Source: a virus
DNA length: 64,000 bases
Virus record (IMG/VR): IMGVR_UViG_3300031521_000033
Span: 1-64,000 of that record
Reading direction: 5' to 3' (one strand)
The notes beneath the pieces were generated by a model. It made no database searches. It saw nothing but the letters and a program-made list of their open reading frames with translations, and was not told where the DNA came from. Position 1 is the first letter of the stretch. Every line of letters begins with the position of its first letter. Made by a program: the position numbers and the translations under genes. This document shows, piece by piece, positions 889 to 45,438 of this stretch.

Positions 889-917
889 ATTATACCATAC
901 TTTTGGTAATTTGTCAA
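889..917 (-). promoter_or_regulatory. Promoter for scaffold/capsid genes
   Basis: On the minus strand TTGACA (917-912) is separated by exactly 17 bases from TATAAT (894-889). It lies in the gap between the Mu F-like gene and the scaffold gene. Confidence 0.85.
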
Positions 918-942
918 TACTTTTTTAAAATATTTTTTTATT

Positions 943-2010
943 TTATCTTATTATTGGATCTTCGTAATAGTTCCAGTTGCTTAATGTTTTTTCCCAATCT
1001 CCTGTTTTTAAGTACTTGGATAAATTATCCATTGTAAACAACTTTGCTCTATCTGTCTCACTCAGTGAATTAATATAATTATTTACACCTTTTACATTTA
1101 ATTTTTTATTTGTATTTACATCTTCTTTAAGAACTTTTTCTAAACTACACATGCAATGTGGATGAGCCGGATATCTTGGTATTTTATTCTTTGGATAAAT
1201 ACCTTTTCCATATCCAATATCAGCCCCCGCATTTACATCGCAAATATCAAATGGAAATCTATTATGGATTGATGATAACTTCCATCTATATCCAAATATA
1301 TTATCATCATCTTTATCATTATATAACATACTCTCATAGGCTGCTCTTGCAACCTCGGTATTATTTAACGCCCTGTATTGGCTTCTTACGTTAATATCAA
1401 TAGCTTTATTTATAAGGTATGGCGTTATGGATGCTAATAAAATAGCCAACAAATCTTTTAACTTTGAATTGTCATCATCTGTAATTCTATTTTGCCTTAT
1501 TTTTATTTGCATATCCTGTAACTGATCAATTATATTATTATATGTTTTATCATTGGAAGTATCCATATCTTGATATAATAGTTTCATTTTACTGGATATC
1601 TCATTTACAACCGATAACGAATCTACATTTTTATTTGCGATTGTTATTATATTTGATACTAATAATTTACCCGCTAATACAACATCTTCTACTGTATTTG
1701 ATAAATTAGATTCAAGTATATTAACTCTTTTTTGTAAACTACTTGAACCTTTTACCCATGGCTTATTCAATATATCATTTCTAATAGTATCTGATTTTTT
1801 ATCGCGTATTTTATTTATAGCTGATAAAATACTATCTATCAGATCATCCGTAATAACTTTGTTGAAATTATAATCTTTTAGTGCCAACTTAATTGCACTT
1901 TTAATACTATTACCCTTAGACACCAATAAAATAATACTTTTAGTAAATTTTTTTGAATCTTTACTATAATCATTATTAAACTTCTGTATCAATTTTAAAA
2001 CATTTTCCAT
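943..2010 (-). CDS. Mu F-like / SPP1 gp7-like minor head protein
   Basis: About 355 aa. The C-terminal third carries the Mu F-like signature: an ALNNTEVARAAYE segment, then W-K-L-S, a D-x-C-D-x-N-A-G-A stretch and the histidine/cysteine motif YPAHPHCMCS near residues 290-300. Such proteins sit inside the head near the portal and help head assembly or early DNA entry. The N-terminal two thirds is helical and lacks a recognised domain. I prefer the ATG at 2010 to the in-frame GTG at 2019, because AAGG is 10 bases upstream of the ATG. It lies immediately downstream of the portal gene, the usual place. Confidence 0.85.
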   Translation of the reverse strand: MENVLKLIQKFNNDYSKDSKKFTKSIILLVSKGNSIKSAIKLALKDYNFNKVITDDLIDSILSAINKIRDKKSDTIRNDILNKPWVKGSSSLQKRVNILESNLSNTVEDVVLAGKLLVSNIITIANKNVDSLSVVNEISSKMKLLYQDMDTSNDKTYNNIIDQLQDMQIKIRQNRITDDDNSKLKDLLAILLASITPYLINKAIDINVRSQYRALNNTEVARAAYESMLYNDKDDDNIFGYRWKLSSIHNRFPFDICDVNAGADIGYGKGIYPKNKIPRYPAHPHCMCSLEKVLKEDVNTNKKLNVKGVNNYINSLSETDRAKLFTMDNLSKYLKTGDWEKTLSNWNYYEDPIIR

Positions 2011-2027
2011 AATAATCACACCTTATC

Positions 2028-3503
2028 TTAAGCTGATGTTGACAGCACCGTTGGCTTAGTTTCTATTGGATCTTGTGCCGTACTGTCGGCCATAAGATTT
2101 GCTATCGTTGCATTAATTACATTATCGTCTTGATCCTTTAATGTATCCCTAATTACTTTTTTCTTCAACTCAATATTGTATGAAGGGCATATGTTTAATG
2201 CCAATCCCTGTGTTGCAACGTTTAATGAATCAATCGAATCCACAATACCAAATTGACTGTTATATGTTACTGTTACATTTGTTGCATCTAAATTTTCGCT
2301 CACGTATAAACCAAATATATTTGCAACTATCTGTTCAACACTCTCAAGATTCTGTGCAAACTCTGCAATCGTTTGGAATAAATTTGCATTGTCCCATTCT
2401 TTTGCTATTCCACTTTCCTGTGTTTGAACGCCTGTAACCAACTGCAAACTTGCCATTCTGTATATTTCTTGTACCATCCAAGTTATCTCGTCTGACAACA
2501 TCTTTGACGGGGCCGCATCTGGTGATATAAATTCTGGTTTCTGTGTTCCAGCTTTATATGCTAACAGATCTGTTGTACCAACGGCGATACTTTTTGCAGA
2601 TGCAAAATCATCCTCTTCACTAACCGGATAGGTAAGTAAACTAAACGCCTGATTTCTATTACGTTCTCTAAGTTCGCTGCATGCGTTGTATATGGCGTAA
2701 TTTGTACGGGCTATTGCATATATGTCTGATTGTGGTATAAGCCCTTCTGAGTCGTTTAAAGCACCATATATTGGAATTACTGGTATAATACCAATCTCGT
2801 TTGTTCCTTTCGTACTATCCCCATCTGCATCAACCTGATATGTATCATTTGTCCAAGTCCATGTTTCTGTGTATAATACCTTTTCTCCATCAACTATTTT
2901 AGTACTTCTAATGAAGTATTTTATGTAAATTAATTTTCCAAATTTATCAATAGCCCAATCAGTAACATGATCCGGTCTAACTAAATACAAGTATGGATAT
3001 AATCTGTTATCTTTTGCCGTTTTCAACGATACAGGTTCGGACGTATCTAATTTATCCATATCAACTACAATAAATTGAACCCCATGTAACTTTGCTCTTA
3101 TGGCGGCCCTCTTCATAAACCTATTCATTGATGTTCCTTTTCCGTCAACATTCGATAAAAAATCACCATAAAACTTTGAACCTGTAAATTCCCTTCGTGG
3201 TGAAGTTTTAAATATAGGATTAACATGTGCATCAACAACTGGTTTAACATAATTACAGTAATATGATAAACCTCTACGTCTATTGTATTTGTCTGCTGGT
3301 TCTCTTGGATGGGCTATTAAATATGCACCATCTTCAAAACCGCCGCTGGCTCTATAGCAATCATCTAACAATTTATATTTATTTGGCATTCCATGAAATG
3401 GTACTGATGCTAATAATCGTAATAGTAATGTTTCCTCTTCACTGCACACGCCACTATCCGGTTCATTTGAATCATAAATCTTTTGGTCATGTTTATTTGA
3501 CAA
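2028..3503 (-). CDS. Portal protein
   Basis: 491 aa, within the usual range for phage portals. The sequence has the portal-like N-terminal crossover (YCNYVKPVVDAHVNPIF near residues 82-98), a central region with IYGALNDSEGLIPQSD, and a long helical C-terminus. It is the dodecameric ring through which DNA enters and leaves the head. The gene lies between the large terminase and the Mu F-like protein, the classical order. Translation starts at a TTG with AAGGAGG 7 bases upstream. Confidence 0.87.
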   Translation of the reverse strand: MSNKHDQKIYDSNEPDSGVCSEEETLLLRLLASVPFHGMPNKYKLLDDCYRASGGFEDGAYLIAHPREPADKYNRRRGLSYYCNYVKPVVDAHVNPIFKTSPRREFTGSKFYGDFLSNVDGKGTSMNRFMKRAAIRAKLHGVQFIVVDMDKLDTSEPVSLKTAKDNRLYPYLYLVRPDHVTDWAIDKFGKLIYIKYFIRSTKIVDGEKVLYTETWTWTNDTYQVDADGDSTKGTNEIGIIPVIPIYGALNDSEGLIPQSDIYAIARTNYAIYNACSELRERNRNQAFSLLTYPVSEEDDFASAKSIAVGTTDLLAYKAGTQKPEFISPDAAPSKMLSDEITWMVQEIYRMASLQLVTGVQTQESGIAKEWDNANLFQTIAEFAQNLESVEQIVANIFGLYVSENLDATNVTVTYNSQFGIVDSIDSLNVATQGLALNICPSYNIELKKKVIRDTLKDQDDNVINATIANLMADSTAQDPIETKPTVLSTSA

Positions 3504-3515
3504 TATATTACCTCC

Positions 3516-4838
3516 TTATATTCCAACCCTCATTGCCGCGTTTCTGATGTTATCTTTATCCCTATTTGTATATACTCCGTACCGAAACCCATCACAAGTA
3601 TGATCGTCAACTTCTTTTGGCGCATCAATTCCCTTTAATTGTGCTTTTTCATCCCATGAGTATGTTGATATTTGCTTGATGGTATTCTTGCACTCGTCAA
3701 CAACATAAAATCTGTCAGATCCAATCATTGTTGCAACTGTACGAATACCATCCAATACTGAATTTTGTGCATTTCTAACTTTCATTCTGAATCTTCTTAA
3801 CTGCAATCTAAAACTAGCTGCCGCCGGATCAATTAGTATCTCAATCTGTTTATAGTTTAATCCTGTTATTTTTGTATGTAGTGTTATAAACTCTTTCATA
3901 TCTTCTGAATAGTCTAAATCTGTTTTCTGAGATTCTTCTGTATGGCCATCATAATAATATTCTTTAACAGTGAAGAATTTTCCATCATATGTTTTGCACT
4001 GTAGCAGAAACACTGTTGCATTACCTGTACCATAATCGCATGCAACCCACCATTTTCTAACTTTATTAAATGGTACATCTTCTAATTTTATTACATGCCG
4101 TTCACTGACAAACATATCATATATAAGACCATCTGCAAGACACCACTGCCCTAAAATGAACCTCTTATAAAATACACCGCTGTAATTACGTTTATATCTG
4201 TCCTTAATTTTTGTTGATAATGAAGGGTTATCGTCCATATCAAAATGAAGATATATACCATTTTTTTCACTTAGTTTTTGTATAAGCTCTGTATAAACCC
4301 AATGGTATGGGCTTCCTGGATTACAGTTAATGAATATTTTACTATCTTCAACTGAGCATCTTCCTGTTGCTTGATTGTAAAATGATTCTGGCATTAAAAC
4401 TACTTCATCAAATAATACAGAACAGAATGTTGAACCCTGTACTAAATCCTGACTTGCCTCATCCTTGCCGCCGAAGATCCAAAACTTATTAACTACACTT
4501 CCCTTGAATATTTCTATGTAACTTAATGATATATTTTCCTGTATCTCATATCCAAGACTTATTAACATTTGCTTTAATGGTGAAAGGACATTACGTTTAA
4601 ACGCCCCAATTGTCTTACCACACATTCCAGCATCCATCTGGTTAAAATGACTCATTACATACAATATAAAAGATAATGTTAATATAATTGTCTTTCCACT
4701 ACGAATTGCGCCGTCTGCAATTATTATATCTTTATCTTTTACAGGGCTATTATCAGCCCAAAATGTTAATACTTTTAATTGCTTTTTTGAAAATGGTTTA
4801 AATTCAAATCCCTTTGTCTCATACTTCCTTAATGCCAT
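3516..4838 (-). CDS. terL: Terminase large subunit
   Basis: 440 aa packaging motor. The N-terminal ATPase has a Walker A-like motif DGAIRSGKT (residues 42-50) and a Walker B motif VLFDE (141-145), with FINCNPGSPYHW nearby as the coupling motif. The C-terminal RNase H-like nuclease domain begins at VACDYGTGNA and contains a second acidic strand ILIDPAA, which would bind the catalytic metals. This is the PBSX/Terminase_3 type. It overlaps the small terminase gene by 20 bases, consistent with translational coupling. Confidence 0.95.
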   Translation of the reverse strand: MALRKYETKGFEFKPFSKKQLKVLTFWADNSPVKDKDIIIADGAIRSGKTIILTLSFILYVMSHFNQMDAGMCGKTIGAFKRNVLSPLKQMLISLGYEIQENISLSYIEIFKGSVVNKFWIFGGKDEASQDLVQGSTFCSVLFDEVVLMPESFYNQATGRCSVEDSKIFINCNPGSPYHWVYTELIQKLSEKNGIYLHFDMDDNPSLSTKIKDRYKRNYSGVFYKRFILGQWCLADGLIYDMFVSERHVIKLEDVPFNKVRKWWVACDYGTGNATVFLLQCKTYDGKFFTVKEYYYDGHTEESQKTDLDYSEDMKEFITLHTKITGLNYKQIEILIDPAAASFRLQLRRFRMKVRNAQNSVLDGIRTVATMIGSDRFYVVDECKNTIKQISTYSWDEKAQLKGIDAPKEVDDHTCDGFRYGVYTNRDKDNIRNAAMRVGI

Positions 4839-5535
4839 CTAAATCATCATCCTTATCGTCCTTCCAAACTTCTAATGATTTAGAATTAATTGCTTCAAGA
4901 ATATTGCTACCAGCTTTTTCATCTTTAGCTTTTTCAGCTTGCCAACTAAAGAACTCTTTCAAACGGTCCCATGCCCATTTTTGATCTAATAGTTCAATTG
5001 ATACACCATCTCGGCCTTCTTTAATCTTGCTAATAAGGCTTGTATCCAAATATGCACTATCTTGTAATTCAACCTTATTAATCTTGCGAGTCATAACTTC
5101 TCCAGTGTCAGGATCTTTTACAACTCCACATAAATTAACAATTGGTATTACTTCTGATTTGAATTTAACAAAATCACCAATATTTGCATTTGCAACTTTC
5201 TGTAGAAAATTAACATACTGTGTTACATCTATTTCCATTGCATGTAGCATTATTTTCTTTACAGCTTTTAATTCTTTTTGTACCGATGGTTTTGCCATCA
5301 ATTTACAGCCTTCATATGTTGCCCTTGCTCTAGTTACTGTAGGATCGTTATCTCGATATGCCTTAAGATAAGCTGATGTTGCATTTCCGCTTTCAACTAC
5401 GTATAATACAAACTCTTTTTCCTTATCACTAATATTACTATCACATACATGTTCTATCATCTTATTTGTAATAGCTTTAGATTTTGATGGTTTAATATTT
5501 GCTTCAATGATATCATCTTTTTTCTTTCTCGCCAC
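4819..5535 (-). CDS. terS: Terminase small subunit (Terminase_2-like)
   Basis: About 238 aa. The middle has SDKEKEFVLYVVESGNATSAYLKAY, followed by YEGCKLMAKPSVQKELK: the helix-turn-helix and conserved region of the Terminase_2 family, which recognises the packaging site and assembles as a ring beside the large subunit. The N-terminus is lysine rich (ARKKKDD). I chose the GTG at 5535, because AAAGGAGG is 7 bases upstream; the in-frame ATG at 5556 overlaps that binding site and cannot use it. Confidence 0.88.
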   Translation of the reverse strand: MARKKKDDIIEANIKPSKSKAITNKMIEHVCDSNISDKEKEFVLYVVESGNATSAYLKAYRDNDPTVTRARATYEGCKLMAKPSVQKELKAVKKIMLHAMEIDVTQYVNFLQKVANANIGDFVKFKSEVIPIVNLCGVVKDPDTGEVMTRKINKVELQDSAYLDTSLISKIKEGRDGVSIELLDQKWAWDRLKEFFSWQAEKAKDEKAGSNILEAINSKSLEVWKDDKDDDLDGIKEV

Positions 5536-5564
5536 ATAATTACCTCCTTTATACACCTACATTA

Positions 5565-5593
5565 ATTATAACACATTTTTACTAATTTGTCAA
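5565..5593 (-). promoter_or_regulatory. Promoter for packaging/head operon
   Basis: Minus-strand TTGACA (5593-5588), 17-base spacer, TATAAT (5570-5565), with TGT directly before the -10 as an extended -10. It lies just upstream of the small terminase and just downstream of the tRNA transcript's end. Confidence 0.88.
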
Positions 5594-5607
5594 TACCTTT
5601 GCACAAA

Positions 5608-5660
5608 ATAATAGCCATAATTAAGTTAACGAATAATCGCAACCTGATCATGGCTATTAT
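5608..5660 (-). terminator. Inverted repeat ending the tRNA transcript
   Basis: Perfect 11-base arms (5650-5660 and 5608-5618) enclose a 31-base loop, followed on the minus strand by TATTTTG. It is placed between the tRNA-like RNA and the terminase promoter, so it probably ends or protects the RNA transcript. The long loop and short U-run make it an imperfect intrinsic terminator. Confidence 0.45.
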
Positions 5661-5689
5661 AAAAGGAGATAATAAAAATGAATAAGTCT

Positions 5690-5835
5690 GTTTTTGGGAA
5701 TTAATGGATTTGAACCATTTATATACGTGAATACAGCCACCAAGACTTTTCCCATATGGAGCACCACCACAGGATCTAACTGTGATTATGGCTTTACAAA
5801 AGCCACGTACTAACATTATACTAGTGGTGCAGTAA
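5690..5835 (-). ncRNA. Structured RNA with tRNA-like T-arm
   Basis: Directly after the tRNA on the minus strand. A 7-bp stem (5824-5830 with 5761-5767) closes a multiloop containing two hairpins: GGCTTT/AAAGCC arms at 5799-5804 and 5790-5795, and CACAG/CTGTG arms at 5780-5784 and 5768-5772. Next comes a perfect T-arm-like hairpin: 5-bp stem 5715-5719 with 5703-5707 and a 7-base loop TTCAAAT. It is flanked by GGGAA/TTCCC (5749-5753 with 5696-5700), as in a tRNA acceptor stem. The space between acceptor and T-arm is too short for both a D-arm and an anticodon arm, so a normal tRNA is excluded. An 84-codon reading frame covers this stretch but has no ribosome binding site. Confidence 0.5.
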
Positions 5836-5838
5836 TAT

Positions 5839-5915
5839 TGGTGGGACCTGATGGGAACGATCCATCGACCTGTCCGTTATGAGCGGAATGCTCTAACCAA
5901 CTGAGCTAAGGTCCC
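5839..5915 (-). tRNA. tRNA with anticodon CAT (Met or lysidine-type Ile)
   Basis: Complete cloverleaf on the minus strand. The 7-bp acceptor GGGACCT/AGGTCCC runs from 5915, with discriminator A at 5842 and a genomically encoded CCA at 5841-5839. The D-arm is GCTC/GAGC and the anticodon loop is CTCATAA. The T-stem is GATGG/CCATC with loop ATCGTTC. The anticodon stem lacks the three G-C pairs of initiator tRNA, so this is elongator Met or the Ile tRNA that needs lysidine; sequence alone does not decide. The T-loop has A54 and T58 instead of the normal T54 and A58. Confidence 0.93.
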
Positions 5916-5918
5916 ATT

Positions 5919-6011
5919 AATATAGGTAATATTAACCCCAACCATCGTTAATATACTTGATGACCAATCAGTCTCATACATAATGTCATCCCCGTTGTTT
6001 CATCCTATATT
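5919..6011 (-). ncRNA. Three-way-junction leader RNA ahead of the tRNA
   Basis: Starts a few bases after the -10 element at 6015-6020. An 8-bp closing stem (6004-6011 with 5919-5926) encloses two hairpins: a 6-bp stem (5985-5990 with 5959-5964, 20-base loop) and an 8-bp stem (5947-5954 with 5929-5936, 10-base loop). The tRNA 5' end follows 3 bases after the closing stem. It has no plausible start codon and ribosome site. It may be a stable small RNA released by RNase P cleavage of the tRNA 5' end. Confidence 0.55.
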
Positions 6012-6014
6012 TAT

Positions 6015-6043
6015 ATTATAACACATTTTTACTTACTTGTCAA
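6015..6043 (-). promoter_or_regulatory. Promoter for leader RNA and tRNA
   Basis: Minus-strand TTGACA (6043-6038), 17-base spacer, TATAAT (6020-6015), extended -10 TGT. A perfect consensus directly in front of the structured leader and tRNA. Confidence 0.9.
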
Positions 6044-6049
6044 TACTTT

Positions 6050-7243
6050 TTATAAAACTAATTTTGTTCTTGTTGTTCCAACTGTGAAATAGAAACCATC
6101 ACTTGCTTTTTCAATTGTTCCATCTAACGCTCCTGCTGCAACTGCTGCCGCCGGAAGTAATGTTGATGTTCTAATTCTTACAGGTGACATTGTAAGCGGT
6201 GATGCTCCTAGTCCGCCGTTTAAAGTAGCCGCACCGCCAACACCTGTTGATAGATACATTAATGCTACAAAAGCTATTCCACCTGTCCCTGCGACCGCTG
6301 GTGATGCTAATGTTGTAATAGGTACACTTGATAGTACAGACATACCACTTGATGTTGTAGTGAGTACTGGAGTATTTGTAGTTGTCATTGATACAAGTCC
6401 TGATACATATGCCGCTGTTCCTGCTACAACTACCTGACCAACTACTGAATCTGATGTATGTGTAAATGCTATTGCTCCACCAATTGCTAATGCAATATTA
6501 TCTGGTGCATCAACTTTAAATGATGCTCTATTAGCAATAAAACTACCTGTTGCTCCTGTAGTTGAATAAAAACAACGTGCCGATGCATTTGAATGTAGAA
6601 CACTTACATTACCATCTAATAATTGTATTTTACTTGCAGAATTTGTATTGGTCCATACAATTGCATCTCCCACGCCTGATGGGGAAACACTATTAACAAA
6701 ACTATTTATTAGTTGTAAATTAGCTGCTGCAGATCCACTAAATGATAATGTTGTTCCTGATCCTGCGGTTGCTGCATTTTGCAATACAATATTTTCACCA
6801 ATAACTGTACCTGAAAATGAAGATACATGATTACCAATAATATAAACACCATATTTAACAGGTGATGTTATATTTACTCCTGCCTTTAGTGTTATATTCT
6901 CTGTGTACATACCAGGATATACACCTATTGTATAACCACTTGAAGCAACGTCTATGGCCCTCTGTACTGTTAAATAAGGTGAACCTAAACTACCATCACC
7001 TGCCGTATCATTACCATTTTTAGAAACATATAGATAATTACTTGGTTTGATCAAACTATCAACAGCTCCTTTAAGCCACCAACCATTTCCTGTGGCCGGG
7101 TTTATATTTTTATTACTCCACACATATTCTGTTTTAGTATCTAATTCAGTAAAATTGGCCAATTCATATATCTTACCTGTAGGCTTATCATCTGAAAAAA
7201 GACCACTATAATTAAGTTTATTTATGTCATAATAAACTGCCAT
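6050..7243 (-). CDS. Beta-helix repeat structural protein (decoration or tail spike)
   Basis: About 397 aa. After a 70-residue head region comes YLYVSKNGNDTAGDGS followed by SPYLTVQRAID, the start of a right-handed parallel beta-helix of the DUF1565/pectate-lyase-like type. The remainder is a long Gly/Ala/Thr/Ser-rich repetitive beta region typical of phage fibres, spikes and capsid decorations. I chose the ATG at 7243 because AAAAGGATG precedes it; the frame opens earlier but inside the upstream terminator. The gene stands alone between RNA loci, far from any tail gene in view. It has no close promoter of its own apart from readthrough of the terminator at 7271-7301. No lyase residues can be assigned. 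Confidence 0.7.
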   Translation of the reverse strand: MAVYYDINKLNYSGLFSDDKPTGKIYELANFTELDTKTEYVWSNKNINPATGNGWWLKGAVDSLIKPSNYLYVSKNGNDTAGDGSLGSPYLTVQRAIDVASSGYTIGVYPGMYTENITLKAGVNITSPVKYGVYIIGNHVSSFSGTVIGENIVLQNAATAGSGTTLSFSGSAAANLQLINSFVNSVSPSGVGDAIVWTNTNSASKIQLLDGNVSVLHSNASARCFYSTTGATGSFIANRASFKVDAPDNIALAIGGAIAFTHTSDSVVGQVVVAGTAAYVSGLVSMTTTNTPVLTTTSSGMSVLSSVPITTLASPAVAGTGGIAFVALMYLSTGVGGAATLNGGLGASPLTMSPVRIRTSTLLPAAAVAAGALDGTIEKASDGFYFTVGTTRTKLVL

Positions 7244-7270
7244 TAACACACATCCTTTTAATTTTATATA

Positions 7271-7301
7271 AAACAAAAAGGACTAGTTTAAAAACCAGTC
7301 C
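7271..7301 (-). terminator. Intrinsic terminator of the 720-nt RNA
   Basis: On the minus strand a 9-bp stem, GGACTGGTT (7301-7293) with AACTAGTCC (7288-7280) including one G-T pair, and a 4-base loop, is followed by TTTTTGTTT. It lies 28 bases before the beta-helix start codon, so it either ends the RNA or acts as an attenuator for that gene. Confidence 0.85.
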
Positions 7302-7993
7302 AAAATATAATGATGCTTTTTCCAATCTCCACAACCATCCCCCAATATTACCATAGTAATCAAGTTTGAAAAGCATCTGAAAAATGGTTGCTTCCGTTTG
7401 CAAACGTTATTTTATTTAACATAAACCTAAATGGTTAAACCAACTGCTAATACAGCCTCACAAATGTTATAAAATGGACAATAGTTAACAGTATTTTTCT
7501 AATATGCTCAATTACATAACATTTTCTCTTCTCACATATTAAGGTGTTTCATGTTAATACGATTTTGGTAGGATTCGTAACCTCTAATACTAGTACTTGC
7601 TCACAAGTGAATGATATTCTAAATTAAAGCCCCGTCATTCCCGGAGGCTGATATTATTATTTGTTGTGGTGATCATCCACATTCATTCAATTCCTATTTT
7701 TACAGGTTGGAGTTCCTGACTTTGTTTATTCGCTTATGGCTGTTAGTTTTCAGTATTTTATTGGGTTCAACTAGTGAACTTCCCCTCATTTAACTGTACA
7801 TACAAGTATTACAGCACCACTCACTTATTTGCCTCGCTCTTTCGGGTGCGATATCCCAACTTCTTGGAAATGGGTTTAACGTCTCCATTCCGACCATGTA
7901 TGCATACAAGTTATAGGATAATCATTCTCAAAATATTTTAGCATTAAAACTTATCCCATAAAGTGGGAATCTTTTTTGTTTCTTTTATCCTAT
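7272..7993 (-). ncRNA. Large (~720-nt) structured non-coding RNA, own promoter and terminator
   Basis: There is no credible reading frame on either strand. A perfect promoter (8000-8028) places the 5' end near 7993 and the intrinsic terminator places the 3' end near 7272. The 5' end folds back: a 9-bp stem pairs 7985-7993 with 7913-7921 around a TCCCA/TGGGA hairpin (7964-7968 with 7954-7958). Further hairpins include GTTCA/TGAAC (7775-7779, 7765-7769) and the palindrome CGTTTGCAAACG (7395-7406). A 9-bp 3' stem (7369-7377 with 7312-7320) encloses ATTAC/GTAAT (7356-7360, 7347-7351). Size, phage origin and a nearby tRNA resemble GOLLD (~800 nt) or ROOL (~600 nt) RNAs, but I cannot match a consensus by eye. 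Confidence 0.75.
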
Positions 7994-7999
7994 ATTATT

Positions 8000-8028
8000 A
8001 TTATAACATACTTTTACCTTTTTGTCAA
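8000..8028 (-). promoter_or_regulatory. Promoter of the 720-nt RNA
   Basis: Minus-strand TTGACA (8028-8023), 17 bases, TATAAT (8005-8000), extended -10 TGT. Exact consensus, and no reading frame follows, which argues strongly that the product is RNA. Confidence 0.9.
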
Positions 8029-8059
8029 TAGATTTATATAATATATTTAATATAATATT

Positions 8060-8591
8060 TGCAAAGGTTATATCAACTTGGTTGCAAGCTGTTTAAGTAC
8101 TATTTTTTATATACTTTAGGGAATGTGAGTACTTGATATATAGAAAAATCCCTAGCATTTAGTAAAAATTAGTCCAATTTATAAATTAATAAAAATTGAA
8201 ATAGTTTAACTAAATGTTAGAGGATTTTTCTATATTGATAAATTTCTTTAGTGAAAAGCTCGCACCTATCAATAGTTCTGTTTTTACAGAGCCAGACTAT
8301 TACTTAAGAACACTCAATGCCCGTGTTCATAATAGCCATCCCACATATGCATAATAATACACATACGTCACTGACCACCCTTGCCGAATTATATTGCCGC
8401 AATCGCAATCATACTGTAAGTATTATAAATAATTAACAGGTCCGTTACATTAGGATCACTGTTTACATCTATAATATATATCTTATAGCAAAGCACATTT
8501 ACAGATTAAGGCTGTGCGGACCATGACCAATTTCTTGTATATCAGAAATTTAAGATCTTATTATATAACGGTTAATATTAAATTTTATCTT
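8060..8591 (-). ncRNA. Second structured non-coding RNA (~530 nt)
   Basis: Gene-free stretch starting 7 bases after a promoter -10 at 8598-8603. Supported pairings on the minus strand: an 8-bp stem (8330-8337 with 8295-8302) enclosing a 6-bp hairpin GAACAC/GTGTTC (8323-8328, 8308-8313); a tetraloop hairpin CTGT/ACAG at 8278-8289; a long-range GGTCC/GGACC stem (8518-8522 with 8439-8443) closing a region that includes a 5-bp GCACA/TGTGC hairpin; and a 20-bp imperfect stem (8210-8231 with 8142-8162). The 3' end is not defined; I set it before the next promoter. It resembles the neighbouring large RNA in setting but not obviously in sequence. Confidence 0.6.
8142..8231. repeat. Long inverted repeat, 21-22-base arms
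   Basis: Arms 8142-8162 and 8210-8231 pair with one bulge and one mismatch around a 47-base A+T-rich loop. Each arm contains a run of five A/T. It probably forms the 3' domain of the second structured RNA and may serve as its 3' boundary. Confidence 0.7.
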
Positions 8592-8597
8592 ATCTAC

Positions 8598-8626
8598 AGT
8601 ATACCACACTTTAACATATTTGTCAA
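8598..8626 (-). promoter_or_regulatory. Promoter of the second structured RNA
   Basis: Minus-strand TTGACA (8626-8621), 17 bases, TATACT (8603-8598). No reading frame with a ribosome site follows within 500 bases. Confidence 0.85.
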
Positions 8627-8710
8627 GTGTTTTTTATTATTTATTTTAAATTATTTTTAACTACCTTATTTATATTATAACACAACTAAAGTTAAAAGTA
8701 AATATTTTTA

Positions 8711-8739
8711 TTTACATATTACATAAAGTATGCTATAAT
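8711..8739 (+). promoter_or_regulatory. Promoter of the plus-strand gene module
   Basis: TTTACA (8711-8716), 17 bases, TATAAT (8734-8739). It diverges from the minus-strand promoter at 8598-8626 and leads into a long leader and the first plus-strand gene. Confidence 0.82.
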
Positions 8740-8765
8740 TAGTTTTAATAGTTTTTATTTTGTTT

Positions 8766-8836
8766 CCTATATAAGTATAAGGACTATGCAATAAAAACAG
8801 CACACAGGCAATACTACATAGCTTAAACTGTATTGC
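8766..8836 (+). promoter_or_regulatory. Structured 5' leader with recurring CCTATATAAGTATA element
   Basis: The leader carries CCTATATAAGTATA at 8766-8779, an element that recurs near 17957, 18547 and 20584. It is followed by a 7-bp hairpin GCAATAC/GTATTGC (8808-8814, 8830-8836). A competing pairing CTATG/CATAG (8784-8788, 8817-8821) is possible, so two folds exclude each other. It could control expression of the module. Confidence 0.4.
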
Positions 8837-8878
8837 AACACTAAAATATATGTATTATATAGAAAGGAAGTCCATAAC

Positions 8879-17824: not shown

Positions 17825-17851
17825 AGCATCCTACGGGGTGCTTTTATTTTT
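17825..17851 (+). terminator. Intrinsic terminator of the plus-strand module
   Basis: 7-bp stem AGCATCC (17825-17831) with GGGTGCT (17836-17842), loop TACG, then TTTTATTTTT. Confidence 0.85.
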
Positions 17852-18070
17852 GCCCAAATGACATTCATGGTCCATTTAAAATTTATACAGAGATTATATT
17901 AAAATGGATTTTAGATTAATGCCCCTAGGACTCCACAGGTTGAGTTATAATATACAATGCATATACTTATATACCTTACCATACAAAGTATCAACACGGG
18001 TGATTGTGAAGGGTAAGTTGTTATAATATCATTTGCCCGGGAGTATTAATGTGGCAGTTTTATAATATGG

Positions 18071-18164
18071 TAACAAGGCTGCAAAGTTGGAAGGCATTAC
18101 AGTAAGACATTTGGGAATAAGATAACAAGTTTTAAAAGTTGGAACGGTACACAGTAAGACATTT
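18071..18164. repeat. Two imperfect 42-base direct repeats
   Basis: Units 18071-18112 and 18123-18164 both start TAACAAG, share AAAGTTGGAA in the middle and end ACAGTAAGACATTT, with divergent bases between. The period is 52 bases. The layout resembles initiator-protein iterons or a duplicated RNA element. Confidence 0.7.
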
Positions 18165-18319
18165 ATTGAAATTATAAAATTTTGTGATACACCCCGCATA
18201 CGTTTAAACTGAAAAAAGATTAAGGGTACGCCCCCCTACCATTATACCATGGACTGTTGCAGCCTGTCAAGAAGAATGTTTATACAGTTTGATGAATAAT
18301 AATGCACGTTGGCAAATAT

Positions 18320-18340
18320 CCGATAAATACTCATTATCGG
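18320..18340. repeat. Hairpin CCGATAA/TTATCGG
   Basis: 7-bp perfect arms with a 7-base loop. Neither strand has a U-run directly after it, so it is not a simple terminator. Confidence 0.55.
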
Positions 18341-18546
18341 AAAAAAGTACACCAATCCTTTTGAATATAGGGGTTTGAAGGTTTTAAAACTGCATTTGCC
18401 TACGCTTTGCCAACGCATTTGGATTACTGAATTTATGCATGCATATTTGGGGGGAAAAAGTTAGTCATGTTTTGATACCCTATAGAATTACTCTTGATTT
18501 TATACTGCATTTTCAATAGGACTGATACAGGCATACAATATATTAA

Positions 18547-18560
18547 CCTATATAAGTATA
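18547..18560. repeat. Recurring element CCTATATAAGTATA
   Basis: Identical to 8766-8779; inverted near-copies lie at 17955-17975 and 20584-20604, which share CAATGCATATACTT. All sit at module boundaries outside genes. Confidence 0.5.
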
Positions 18561-18885
18561 AAGGCATAGTAATAAAGTACGCTTAAAACACATTCTACGA
18601 GGTCATATTTACAGTTGATCCTAATATAATCTAATGAATTGCTGTTGCAGTCCTGTCGTTGTATACAACTCTTGCAATGTCCATCATACAAACACACAAC
18701 TGCATCAATATATTCCATATTATGTTAATTTAGTTGAATAATAGCTATTTTATAGGGTGCAATATATGCCTTTTACCTCATATCATAAACAATTCAGTCA
18801 ATTGTGTCCTATGCATACACACATTGCATGATCTAAATTGCTATTGGAGTGTTGCAAGTTGCCGTGTAGGCGTGTGTCAATCCCG

Positions 18886-18961
18886 CTTTTGCAATCATTT
18901 TTTGTAATTTGTGTATCTTTTAATACTATATTGACACCTTTTGCAATCATTTTTTTTGTAA
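18886..18961. repeat. Tandem repeat with T-runs
   Basis: CTTTTGCAATCATTTTTT followed by TGTAA occurs at 18886-18907 and, with two extra T, at 18938-18961. Possibly part of an unwinding region. Confidence 0.55.
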
Positions 18962-19481
18962 AATGTTTATACAATTGATAATATTATAATGCATTTGTAC
19001 TACAATCATGTAATTGTTGGTGTAATTACTCTGTAATGCAACATACTAACTCAATCTATCTATATAATCATACTAATATACCTATTATCCTTTACTTGTT
19101 ATATTCCTTATACTGTGATATAATTATAATGATAGTATTCTTATACTTAGTATTTATAAAGAACATTATACTTATTACAACTCTTATTCATACTCTTAAT
19201 ACAATGGGTTCTTATTCTCGCTCGGCTACCCTATATAAAGCCTTATATTCACTCTGCACGTCCATACTACAACTACCCTTATACTTATACCAATTCATAT
19301 ATTACTTTCTTTATATCAGCAGCCGGACTGTACAACATCAATACAATAGATAGTAATAATCTTATTTGCATATTTTACTTATTTGATTATATTCCTAATT
19401 AATAATATTCTTAATTAGTTTTATTATTATAAAGTTATATTATCAACTTGTTATATTATTATTATTATTTAAAAATGGGCA

Positions 19482-41970: not shown

Positions 41971-44900
41971 TTAATCCTCTTTTTTCAACTCTATTAATTT
42001 TCCACCTTCATCAAAAGTGTATTCTTGACCATACCATACGAAGCTATATACTGCATCACAGATCAATTGAGCTTTTAAATCATTACCAGCACTTACCATG
42101 CATTCCTCTAATATCTTACCAACTTCTTGTGCATGCTCAACTGGGCATTCCATAATAATTTCATCATAAATCTGTAATAACATATGTGCATCTAATTCTT
42201 TTAACCGCCGATCTCCAGCTATTGTCCTATTGTATACTGCAATCATAGCCTTTTTTGTTAAATCTGCTGCTGTACCCTGAATCGGCGAGTTGAAACTTTG
42301 ACGTGTTGCCTGTGCAATAAACCCACCATTTTGTCTAATATTAACATGCTTTGTTCTTGCTTGCCTAATAATTTCATCTTTTTCTTTGTATGATCTTGTT
42401 TGGCTTAATGCTGTTAAATATGATGCTTTAATCTCATCTGATACATTTTCACCAAATTCAAAATCAGGTAATTGAATATCAGGAAGTCTACGTTTTCTTC
42501 CAAAAAATGTTTCTACATATCCGTTTAGTTTTGCACTAATTACAACATTTTCTAAATATCTTGAAAGTTCAGGATAAGCTCTTAAAACTGCATCTTGTAT
42601 TTCTTGTGCCTTTTTATTATCAACATGTAATTCTTCTGCAATTGCCGGTATTCCTTTTCCATAGATGATGCCAAGGCAAACTTTTTTGGCTTTGTTTCTT
42701 CTGTCCTTGCCTTCTTTATATGTTGTCCCATCTGCATTCTTTTCAACACATTCTTCATACTTAAATCCAAATGCAATACTTGCTACTGCTGAATAAATGT
42801 CCTTCTTATCTGCAAATGCCTTTAACATTTTATGATCATCTGCAATTGATGCAACTGCCATCATTTCCTGTTGCGAAAAATCACACCCTACAAATATCAT
42901 TCCATCTGTTGCTTTAAACATTGTTCTAATTTCTTCATTGTGACTTGGAATATTACTCAGATTTGGTTTTTTACATGTAAACCTTCCTGTATTATGACAT
43001 ATAACAGAATTAGCTATAAAGCTGTGCGTATTTGGCACATGAAAATCATATACATCATTTGTTCCAGTCTCAATTTTTGTAACTGGTAAATAAATATAGT
43101 TACAATACTGTAATGGTTTATCCATTTTATTAGTTGACATTGCACATGCCTTTTTTGTTTCAATCACCCCTACTTCCGTTATAAATGTATTGTAGCTAAA
43201 CCTTGATATTGTTATTCTATTATATTTATATTCGTGATATTTACTGTCAGTTCTGTTTATAGCAGATAGTATACCATAATTTAGTAAAGACCCCTGTATA
43301 AATTTAGCCGTTACATCATCTGTTATACTTAATTTTAATCTGTTCCCACATAAAGAGCTATCAAGTGTACACCCCTTAATAAATGCCTTTATAACACTCC
43401 ATGGGGACATTCTAATTTCTTTACATACTTTTTTATTCCTTGCCCCATGTTTAATATAATCATCAAACCATGAAATACCTTTGCTAGATACATATGTTTC
43501 CATTGTTGTATTTGCCTTTATAGTTTTACCATTTATACCGAATACACTGTTAAATAAGTATTTAACCCTGTTAATTACATCAGGATCATCATTTGATATT
43601 CTTATAGTATATGATCCATTTGATGTTCTTATACTACCATCTGCATTGTACACACCAAGTAATTCTGCTAATTCTTCTGTCATCACACCTGGTTTACTTT
43701 TTGGTATTACTTTACTTCGTGTGGTGGGAATATATGATGATTTTGAAAGGTTTACATAGTTAGCTGGGAACTTTTTAAACCCAAATGGTATTTCAACCAA
43801 ATCACCAATTGTTAGATCCTTTAGTAGTCTGAACTTTCCGGTTGTATACAACTTCTTGTCATAATTTATTCCTCGGTTAGTATGTCTATTAGCTAGTGTA
43901 TACCCCGACACTCTAATAGGATGATGGGGCGTTCCCTCAATTGTAATTCCCATTCTTGTAGTTATTTTAATCGTATCTATACTACTAAATTTTATAACCT
44001 TTGATGCTACTTCATACTCACAATCCTTATTCACAATTATAGTGTCCGTTGATTTAAAGGTATTATCCTCCACATTGCCAACTATATCCGATATTTCCTC
44101 ATACCCCTTAGAGGTAATTACTAGACTTTCCCCCGTAATGCAGTCAGCACCTACCGTATTGTAATTACCATGTATTCGTCCGTCACCTGCTTTAGCATTT
44201 TCAATTAGTGGATCTATATATGTTCCAATTAATTTGCTAATTCCTCTAATATTTAAAATAGCCTTTGCAATTGGTATTTCTGGTATTGTTTCTAATACTT
44301 CCACACCCGTTGGTCTTGTCATTTTCTTTGTCTTTTTATCCCGGACTGGCTTTAATACTTTAAGAACATCATAAAACATTGTAGCCAATTGCTGTGGGCT
44401 TGCTGGATTTGGTGGATATTCAATATTGTTGTGCTTTGTCTGGCATTGATACATTTTAATTTCTGGTTCTAATTCCGCGCAGCATCTTAAATATTCTTCA
44501 TGGTATTTCTTACCAATATTATCATATTTAATCTTTAATTCATATGCCCTTGCTAAGTCTAATTCTATCCCTCTGTCCATCATTTCTGCTGTTGGTGTTA
44601 ATACTGGTATTTCAATATTATAGAATATATCACAAACCCTGTCCAGCTTTTGTTTAATACATTCTGGTGTTCCCTTTGTAAGATATGGAAGTTGAAATCC
44701 AAATAATTCAAATGTCATTTCAGCATCATGTGCCGCGTATGGATAGCCTGTTTCAATTGGTAACATTGGAAATGGGATACCATCAAATAATTCGCCAAAC
44801 TTGAATATGTCTGCTTTACCATTTAATATATATTTGTTATGTAAAAATTTTAACCCATGTTCATCTTCATTTTCATTTAACAATCTCGATGCAATATATG

Positions 44901-45438
44901 TATCCCAATAACATGGTAAAATAACTCCTACTTGATGTTTAATTACTCTTCTATCAAACATGTAATTATGCCAAATAATTTTAATATTTAAATCAACAAT
45001 CATTTGCATAGCCTTTTTTATATCTTTAATAGATATTTGATTATCTACTTTTGCTCCTGTAATATATGATACATGATTTATTGGAATATAGCAAGCAACT
45101 TGTGAAGGTGAATATAAACTTATTCCTGCAATAACATCTTTGAATACATCTAATCCGCTTGTTTCTGTATCCATTGCGATTATTTCATCTTTTGTCGCTC
45201 TATCTATATATTCAAATAATTCATTTGCATCTCTAATTACATAATACTTTGCTTTATACTCCGCAAGACTGCTTTCTACCATAGCTTTAATTCCGGCTAT
45301 CTTATCAATTAGTGAATTTCCACCCTTTAGTCTTACCTTTGCACCCATACTCTCAATATCTGACGTCTTGCTTAATAGTAAAGAATCCCTACTCGAACTA
45401 TTGGCTCTTGTAGGGATCTTAACACTAAATAGACTCAA
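41971..45438 (-). CDS. Family A DNA polymerase with 3'-5' exonuclease and an intein
   Basis: 1155 aa precursor; 771 aa after removal of the intein (residues 433-816). The exonuclease has MDTET at 89-93, WHNYMFDRR and YAAHDAEMTFELF. The polymerase has TGRFTCKKPNLSNIP directly after the intein, motif A VGCDFSQQEM, motif B KVCLGIIYGKGI and motif C QIYDEIIMECP. The usual motif A and C residues are slightly changed (Q-Q-E-M; Y-D-E), but the catalytic Asp residues remain. It is the main replicative polymerase candidate. The TTG start has only a weak ribosome site; a later start would shorten the N-terminus only. Confidence 0.93.
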   Translation of the reverse strand: MSLFSVKIPTRANSSSRDSLLLSKTSDIESMGAKVRLKGGNSLIDKIAGIKAMVESSLAEYKAKYYVIRDANELFEYIDRATKDEIIAMDTETSGLDVFKDVIAGISLYSPSQVACYIPINHVSYITGAKVDNQISIKDIKKAMQMIVDLNIKIIWHNYMFDRRVIKHQVGVILPCYWDTYIASRLLNENEDEHGLKFLHNKYILNGKADIFKFGELFDGIPFPMLPIETGYPYAAHDAEMTFELFGFQLPYLTKGTPECIKQKLDRVCDIFYNIEIPVLTPTAEMMDRGIELDLARAYELKIKYDNIGKKYHEEYLRCCAELEPEIKMYQCQTKHNNIEYPPNPASPQQLATMFYDVLKVLKPVRDKKTKKMTRPTGVEVLETIPEIPIAKAILNIRGISKLIGTYIDPLIENAKAGDGRIHGNYNTVGADCITGESLVITSKGYEEISDIVGNVEDNTFKSTDTIIVNKDCEYEVASKVIKFSSIDTIKITTRMGITIEGTPHHPIRVSGYTLANRHTNRGINYDKKLYTTGKFRLLKDLTIGDLVEIPFGFKKFPANYVNLSKSSYIPTTRSKVIPKSKPGVMTEELAELLGVYNADGSIRTSNGSYTIRISNDDPDVINRVKYLFNSVFGINGKTIKANTTMETYVSSKGISWFDDYIKHGARNKKVCKEIRMSPWSVIKAFIKGCTLDSSLCGNRLKLSITDDVTAKFIQGSLLNYGILSAINRTDSKYHEYKYNRITISRFSYNTFITEVGVIETKKACAMSTNKMDKPLQYCNYIYLPVTKIETGTNDVYDFHVPNTHSFIANSVICHNTGRFTCKKPNLSNIPSHNEEIRTMFKATDGMIFVGCDFSQQEMMAVASIADDHKMLKAFADKKDIYSAVASIAFGFKYEECVEKNADGTTYKEGKDRRNKAKKVCLGIIYGKGIPAIAEELHVDNKKAQEIQDAVLRAYPELSRYLENVVISAKLNGYVETFFGRKRRLPDIQLPDFEFGENVSDEIKASYLTALSQTRSYKEKDEIIRQARTKHVNIRQNGGFIAQATRQSFNSPIQGTAADLTKKAMIAVYNRTIAGDRRLKELDAHMLLQIYDEIIMECPVEHAQEVGKILEECMVSAGNDLKAQLICDAVYSFVWYGQEYTFDEGGKLIELKKED
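42991..44142 (-). other. Intein in DNA polymerase with DOD homing endonuclease
   Basis: 384 residues from Cys433 (CITGESLVI) to Asn816 (SVICHN), followed by Thr. Block B is GTPHHP; block F/G is VYDFHVPNTHSFIANSVICHN-like with the His-Asn end. LLGVYNADGS and FIKGCTLDSS are the two LAGLIDADG motifs. Insertion is exactly before the conserved TGR motif of the polymerase, so splicing is needed for activity. Confidence 0.92.

Follow-up and report, generated by a model that had tools for sequence, protein, structure and literature searches.

The window, which spans positions 1–64,000 of a virus record 94,209 bases long, derives from a tailed phage encoding a terminase, a portal protein, a DNA polymerase of its own, a ribonucleotide reductase of the anaerobic type, a thymidylate synthase and an RNA ligase. 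The DNA polymerase I gene (41971–45438) is interrupted by an intein containing a LAGLIDADG domain (approximately residues 440–816). Leftward late genes and rightward genes flank a 1.6-kb gap that contains two gene-free segments on the minus strand, named R2 (8060–8591) and R1 (7272–7993).

The consensus promoter that the original prediction had placed before R2, at 8598–8626 on the minus strand, proves real as a member of a phage family: extended -10 sites of the type TTGACA-14-TGNTATAAT occur 15 times in the window against 0.22 expected, and the leftward members near R2 and R1 have an A-rich spacer in common. The family TTGACA-n-TAAAA-n-TGNTATAAT extends over 889–8739 of the window and precedes several leftward operons. 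The rightward promoter of the divergent pair is located at 8711–8739; in the untranslated leader of approximately 130 nt that opens the rightward operon (8740–8878), inspection by eye shows a GCAATAC/GTATTGC hairpin and, possibly, pairing at long range between GGAC and GTCC. The approximately 530 bases following the R2 promoter are gene-free, as had been proposed; on the transcribed strand all open frames are of at most 35 aa, none of them preceded, in our own reading, by a recognisable Shine-Dalgarno sequence, and a coding region is ruled out by the lack of any convincing frame.

R2 is probably transcribed. Past either promoter, the only intrinsic terminator found ahead of the next gene is the one listed in Table 1, and none lies between 8591 and the R1 promoter at 8028–8000. 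Since R2 has no terminator of its own, its 3' end at 8060 is arbitrary; two large RNAs in tandem, each with its own promoter, had been proposed, and both promoters stand but the separateness of the two RNAs is not established. R2 probably reads through into R1.

Table 1. Features of the R2/R1 region, in positions of the window.
Feature	Positions	Strand	Description
R2 promoter	8598–8626	-	TTGACA-17-TGGTATACT, extended -10
R2 proper	8240–8591	-	Non-coding; z about -2 for the minus strand and about 0 for the plus strand; no homologue found
Long-range stem GGUCCG/CGGACC	8439–8522	-	8522–8517 pairs with 8444–8439
Nested hairpin	8295–8337	-	8-bp stem 8337–8330/8302–8295 around 6-bp hairpin 8328–8323/8313–8308
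AT-rich near-palindrome, 100 bp	8137–8236	Both, same hairpin	80% matched, 14-bp perfect core
R1 promoter	8000–8028	-	TTGACA-17-TGTTATAAT, 12/12
R1	7272–7993	-	722-nt downstream non-coding RNA; TenpI unit and excess of type III-like pseudoknots
Two ToxI-geometry pseudoknots (candidates)	7834–7894 (7894–7869 and 7857–7834)	-	Geometry
TenpI-type (type III) RNA antitoxin unit	7600–7649	-	H-type pseudoknot, complete unit
Further ToxI-geometry pseudoknot (candidate)	7558–7583	-	Geometry
Intrinsic terminator	7280–7301	-	Sole one found between either promoter and the next gene

The helices named for R2 in the original prediction were all located, at the exact positions given in the text and in Table 1. 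The 8-bp stem enclosing a 6-bp hairpin occurs in both the minimum-energy fold and the centroid, and has no equivalent in 300 shuffled sequences. The 20-bp imperfect stem also exists, and its 14-bp perfect core (8235–8222/8151–8138), reproduced in one of 300 shuffles, lies within the near-palindrome. The GGTCC/GGACC long-range pairing can form, but it is absent from the minimum-energy fold, where CCGUUA/UAACGG competes for the same bases, and a GC-rich 6-bp stem at such a range appears in 5 of 300 shuffles. Two multi-branched domains are predicted in R2 proper, at approximately 8571–8443 and 8442–8262. The stability of the whole region (8060–8591) corresponds to a z of -4.9, that of the near-palindrome alone to -10 for one strand and -13 for the other, and that of 8240–8591 alone to -2.2 or -2.0 on the minus strand, in two computations, and 0.1 on the plus strand; the excess stability of the whole stretch comes mostly from the near-palindrome, and no structure other than this long hairpin and the nested one clearly exceeds chance. 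The large structured RNA that had been described is thus retained as a promoter-driven, gene-free segment with its named helices, but its stability is mainly that of the palindrome and the remaining 352 nt, with a z of about -2, are just a little more stable than shuffled sequences.

The search for relatives of R2 was carried out by sequence and by structure. Rfam covariance models, the search recommended with the original prediction, returned no family near threshold for R2 even at E values up to 10, and neither ROOL (RF03087) nor GOLLD (RF01998) was matched at this limit, which rules out these and other Rfam families; ROOL had no match in the whole record, and control genomes were likewise silent. 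No tRNA or tmRNA was detected in R1 or R2. Homologues of R2 were not found in phage or plasmid records by blastn and nhmmer, near related TerL and DNA polymerase genes, in 28 phage sources by means of a structure model, or in 388 Bacillota genomes, where three short matches correspond to AT-rich stretches; two sequence patterns of 15 and 16 bases gave no homologue in viral contigs either. The only copies are contigs of the same phage from two IMG/VR samples, with 100% identity. The view of R2 as unrelated to the RNA at 7272–7993 is borne out in sequence, the best E value between the two being 0.05. R2 is also ruled out as a type III antitoxin array, because tandem H-type pseudoknots of 34–54 nt are at background (one match against 1.15 expected), direct repeats are absent and no similarity to ToxI, CptI or TenpI units is detected, and as an abiF RNA, because it shows neither a match to RF03085 nor a likeness to abiF motifs.

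These results bear on three readings of R2 taken by itself. That R2 is a large, structured and independent RNA, of a class not yet described but similar to ROOL and GOLLD and with its own function, would agree with the separate promoter, with the nested hairpin missing from all shuffles, with the strand-specific folding and with a location in a phage approximately 2 kb from tRNAs, as is reported for ROOL and GOLLD (PMC12286853); like these RNAs, R2 is a candidate for a long phage RNA free of genes, preceded by a promoter and with tRNAs in its region, but it differs from them, as R1 does, in having no covariance-model match or evidence of conservation. With no relative in any of the collections searched, a modest stability outside the palindrome and no terminator of its own, this reading is rather unlikely, and in the strict ROOL/GOLLD sense the claim of a large structured RNA is not supported, given that no Rfam family comes near threshold, that the searches yielded no homologue in which conservation of the structure might be seen, and that the excess over chance is clear for two hairpins only. 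It is also unlikely that R2 merely forms an intergenic, AT-rich leader separating two promoters, in which all structure but one palindrome is due to chance: the z of about -2 over most of its length, the missing homologues and the background number of pseudoknots are those of such a leader, but 530 non-coding nucleotides are costly for a compact phage genome, the GC content is above that of the flanking spacers and the nested hairpin exceeds what shuffling produces. A replication origin or regulatory hub acting as DNA and centred on the palindrome, whose hairpin is symmetric on both strands in an intergenic region between divergent gene blocks, is very improbable, since the divergent promoters are approximately 470 bp away from the palindrome, which lies within the leftward transcript, no GC skew turn occurs there and no iterated sites or direct repeats were found.

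The reading that we prefer, in which R2 belongs to a counter-defence locus, takes its main evidence from R1. The lead was a weak plasmid match of R1, corresponding to a tandem repeat in a conjugative plasmid of E. faecalis located upstream of a 158-residue TenpN relative (NF047358, E 1.3e-11, below the cut-off of the model). The consensus CCUCCGNGRRYGACGGGG...UAGAAUAUCRYYCACUUGUA is common to R1 7600–7649, to the plasmid repeat and to units upstream of other TenpN relatives; the R1 unit reaches a z of 13 against shuffles, and its score is 62 bits under a model that itself comprises this unit. An alignment of 25 units, again comprising that of R1, strongly supports the pseudoknot: 94.5% of its cells are paired, two-sided changes number 51 against 16.4 in shuffles, covariation is 0.52 against 0.23, and there is a sharp drop when the pairing is slid. 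Judged by its sequence, R1 7600–7649 is therefore a TenpI-type unit, with both the consensus and the covarying pseudoknot. It differs from a TenpIN system in its viral context, in being the only TenpI unit in the window, with no tandem partner, and in lacking the toxin gene: no TenpN match was obtained in the 94-kb phage record, so that the unit is an orphan.

The overall stability of R1 is unremarkable (z -0.9). Pseudoknots with the geometry of ToxI/CptI number six in R1, where 1.0 is expected, and none of 100 shuffles reaches this number. Their support is a count alone, obtained with a descriptor that was tightened after inspection of R1; alignment of sequences did not single them out and was not significant. 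For these reasons the ToxI-like pseudoknots are kept as candidates. A second gene-free region of 1.6 kb, between convergent genes at 17850–19480, has two 49-nt direct repeats with 78% identity (18064–18112 and 18116–18164) and, on the plus strand, seven type III-like pseudoknots against 3.45 in shuffles (equalled in 2 of 100); it is possibly another RNA locus.

Orphan TenpI-type units occur at no fewer than 15 other phage loci. A pattern that left the second helix free separated the matches in viral contigs into two clear groups: in true units all 6 of 6 pairs form, whereas chance matches do not exceed 4 of 6. Unit and toxin are found together at four viral loci (L157, L169, L170 and L189), and L169 (1785–2252) is a complete TenpIN locus on a 160-kb viral contig, with the toxin and approximately three antitoxin units. 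TenpN was not detected in the whole records of L158–L163, L165 and L166 (the sequence of L164 equals that of L161), nor in the fetched stretches of L173, L174, L177, L180, L182–L184, L186 and L188, some of them close to the end of a contig. The units of L180 and L184 are each located in a gene-free stretch adjoining tRNAs, and that of L184 stands beside an abiF RNA above the Rfam threshold (977–1013), with no protein gene visible between the two RNAs or immediately behind them; in L182 the adjacent abiF RNA (41–77) falls just under the threshold. A ToxI-like unit near the TenpI unit was recognised by eye and geometry in L166 and L180. Skipping-rope and drum RNAs are present in stretches with orphan TenpI units at L180 (2422–2508) and L188 (2077–2188). 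A related 118-kb phage (L069, 1700–9200) has a tRNA cluster in which a tmRNA is matched at 51 bits (2393–2708). The same stretch has a repeated element 'stem-AACAGCAATTATTTT-...-stem-CTTGTA', and in one of its copies (approximately 1805–1875) there is an anticodon hairpin resembling that of tRNA-Lys; L184 has a similar start near 1755. Orphan TenpI units in phages were not found described in the open-access literature searched, which leaves aside many journals and all preprints, and this is not a proof of novelty.

In type III systems an endoribonuclease toxin is kept inactive by pseudoknotted RNA units, and in the case of ToxI of Pectobacterium approximately 2.5 repeats are needed for inhibition (PMC5086642). 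The phage PhiTE escapes ToxIN by expanding a pseudo-ToxI of 1.5 units (PMC3475682), which, like R1 and not R2, is a toxin-less type III antitoxin copy carried by a phage in a gene-free stretch. In contrast to this tandem array of identical repeats obtained by laboratory selection, R1 comes from a natural phage record, has a unit of the TenpI family rather than of ToxI and is 722 nt long, with pseudoknots that differ from one another; PhiTE has nothing that corresponds to R2. In C. difficile, AbiF is neutralised by an abiF-type RNA, the RCd22 antitoxin (PMC12373285); RNAs of this family (RF03085) adjoin orphan TenpI units in L184 and L182 and are absent from both R2 and R1.

On this basis we tentatively regard R2, at somewhat less than even confidence, as the promoter-proximal segment of a tandem non-coding counter-defence locus of the phage, which would act as an antitoxin-RNA mimic at least through R1. 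R2 and then R1 would be read leftward from two strong promoters of host type to one terminator; the TenpI pseudoknot of R1, and probably its ToxI-like pseudoknots, would be bound by host endoribonucleases of the TenpN/ToxN type, sparing the phage RNA; R2 would be the second RNA of the locus or a leader with a long AU-rich hairpin at the R2/R1 junction. By analogy with the type III systems, R1 would bind TenpN-type RNases, although one TenpI unit may not suffice on its own. R2 is placed in the locus of R1, as leader or second RNA, because it shares the strand, the promoter type and probably the transcript, and this assignment is made with moderate confidence, an independent RNA class and a plain spacer being kept as live alternatives; against the reading as a whole, nothing in R2 resembles a type III antitoxin or an abiF RNA. 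A broader proposal, rather doubtful at present, is that R2 and R1 form a single multi-target decoy transcript, in which R1 would oppose TenpN/ToxN-type RNases and R2 an undescribed RNA-inhibited or RNA-guided defence enzyme, as one example of widespread phage 'antidote islands' where orphan TenpI, ToxI and abiF RNAs are located next to tRNAs.

For R2 alone the outcome is a sober one, that is, a probably transcribed segment without a recognisable relative. The only precedent found in the literature is the pseudo-ToxI expanded under laboratory selection, and the idea of mimicry offers a way to interpret otherwise unexplained non-coding regions of phages such as R2. If it is right, natural phages would hold ready RNA antidotes to several toxin-antitoxin defences, gathered in non-coding islands that are invisible to protein-based annotation.
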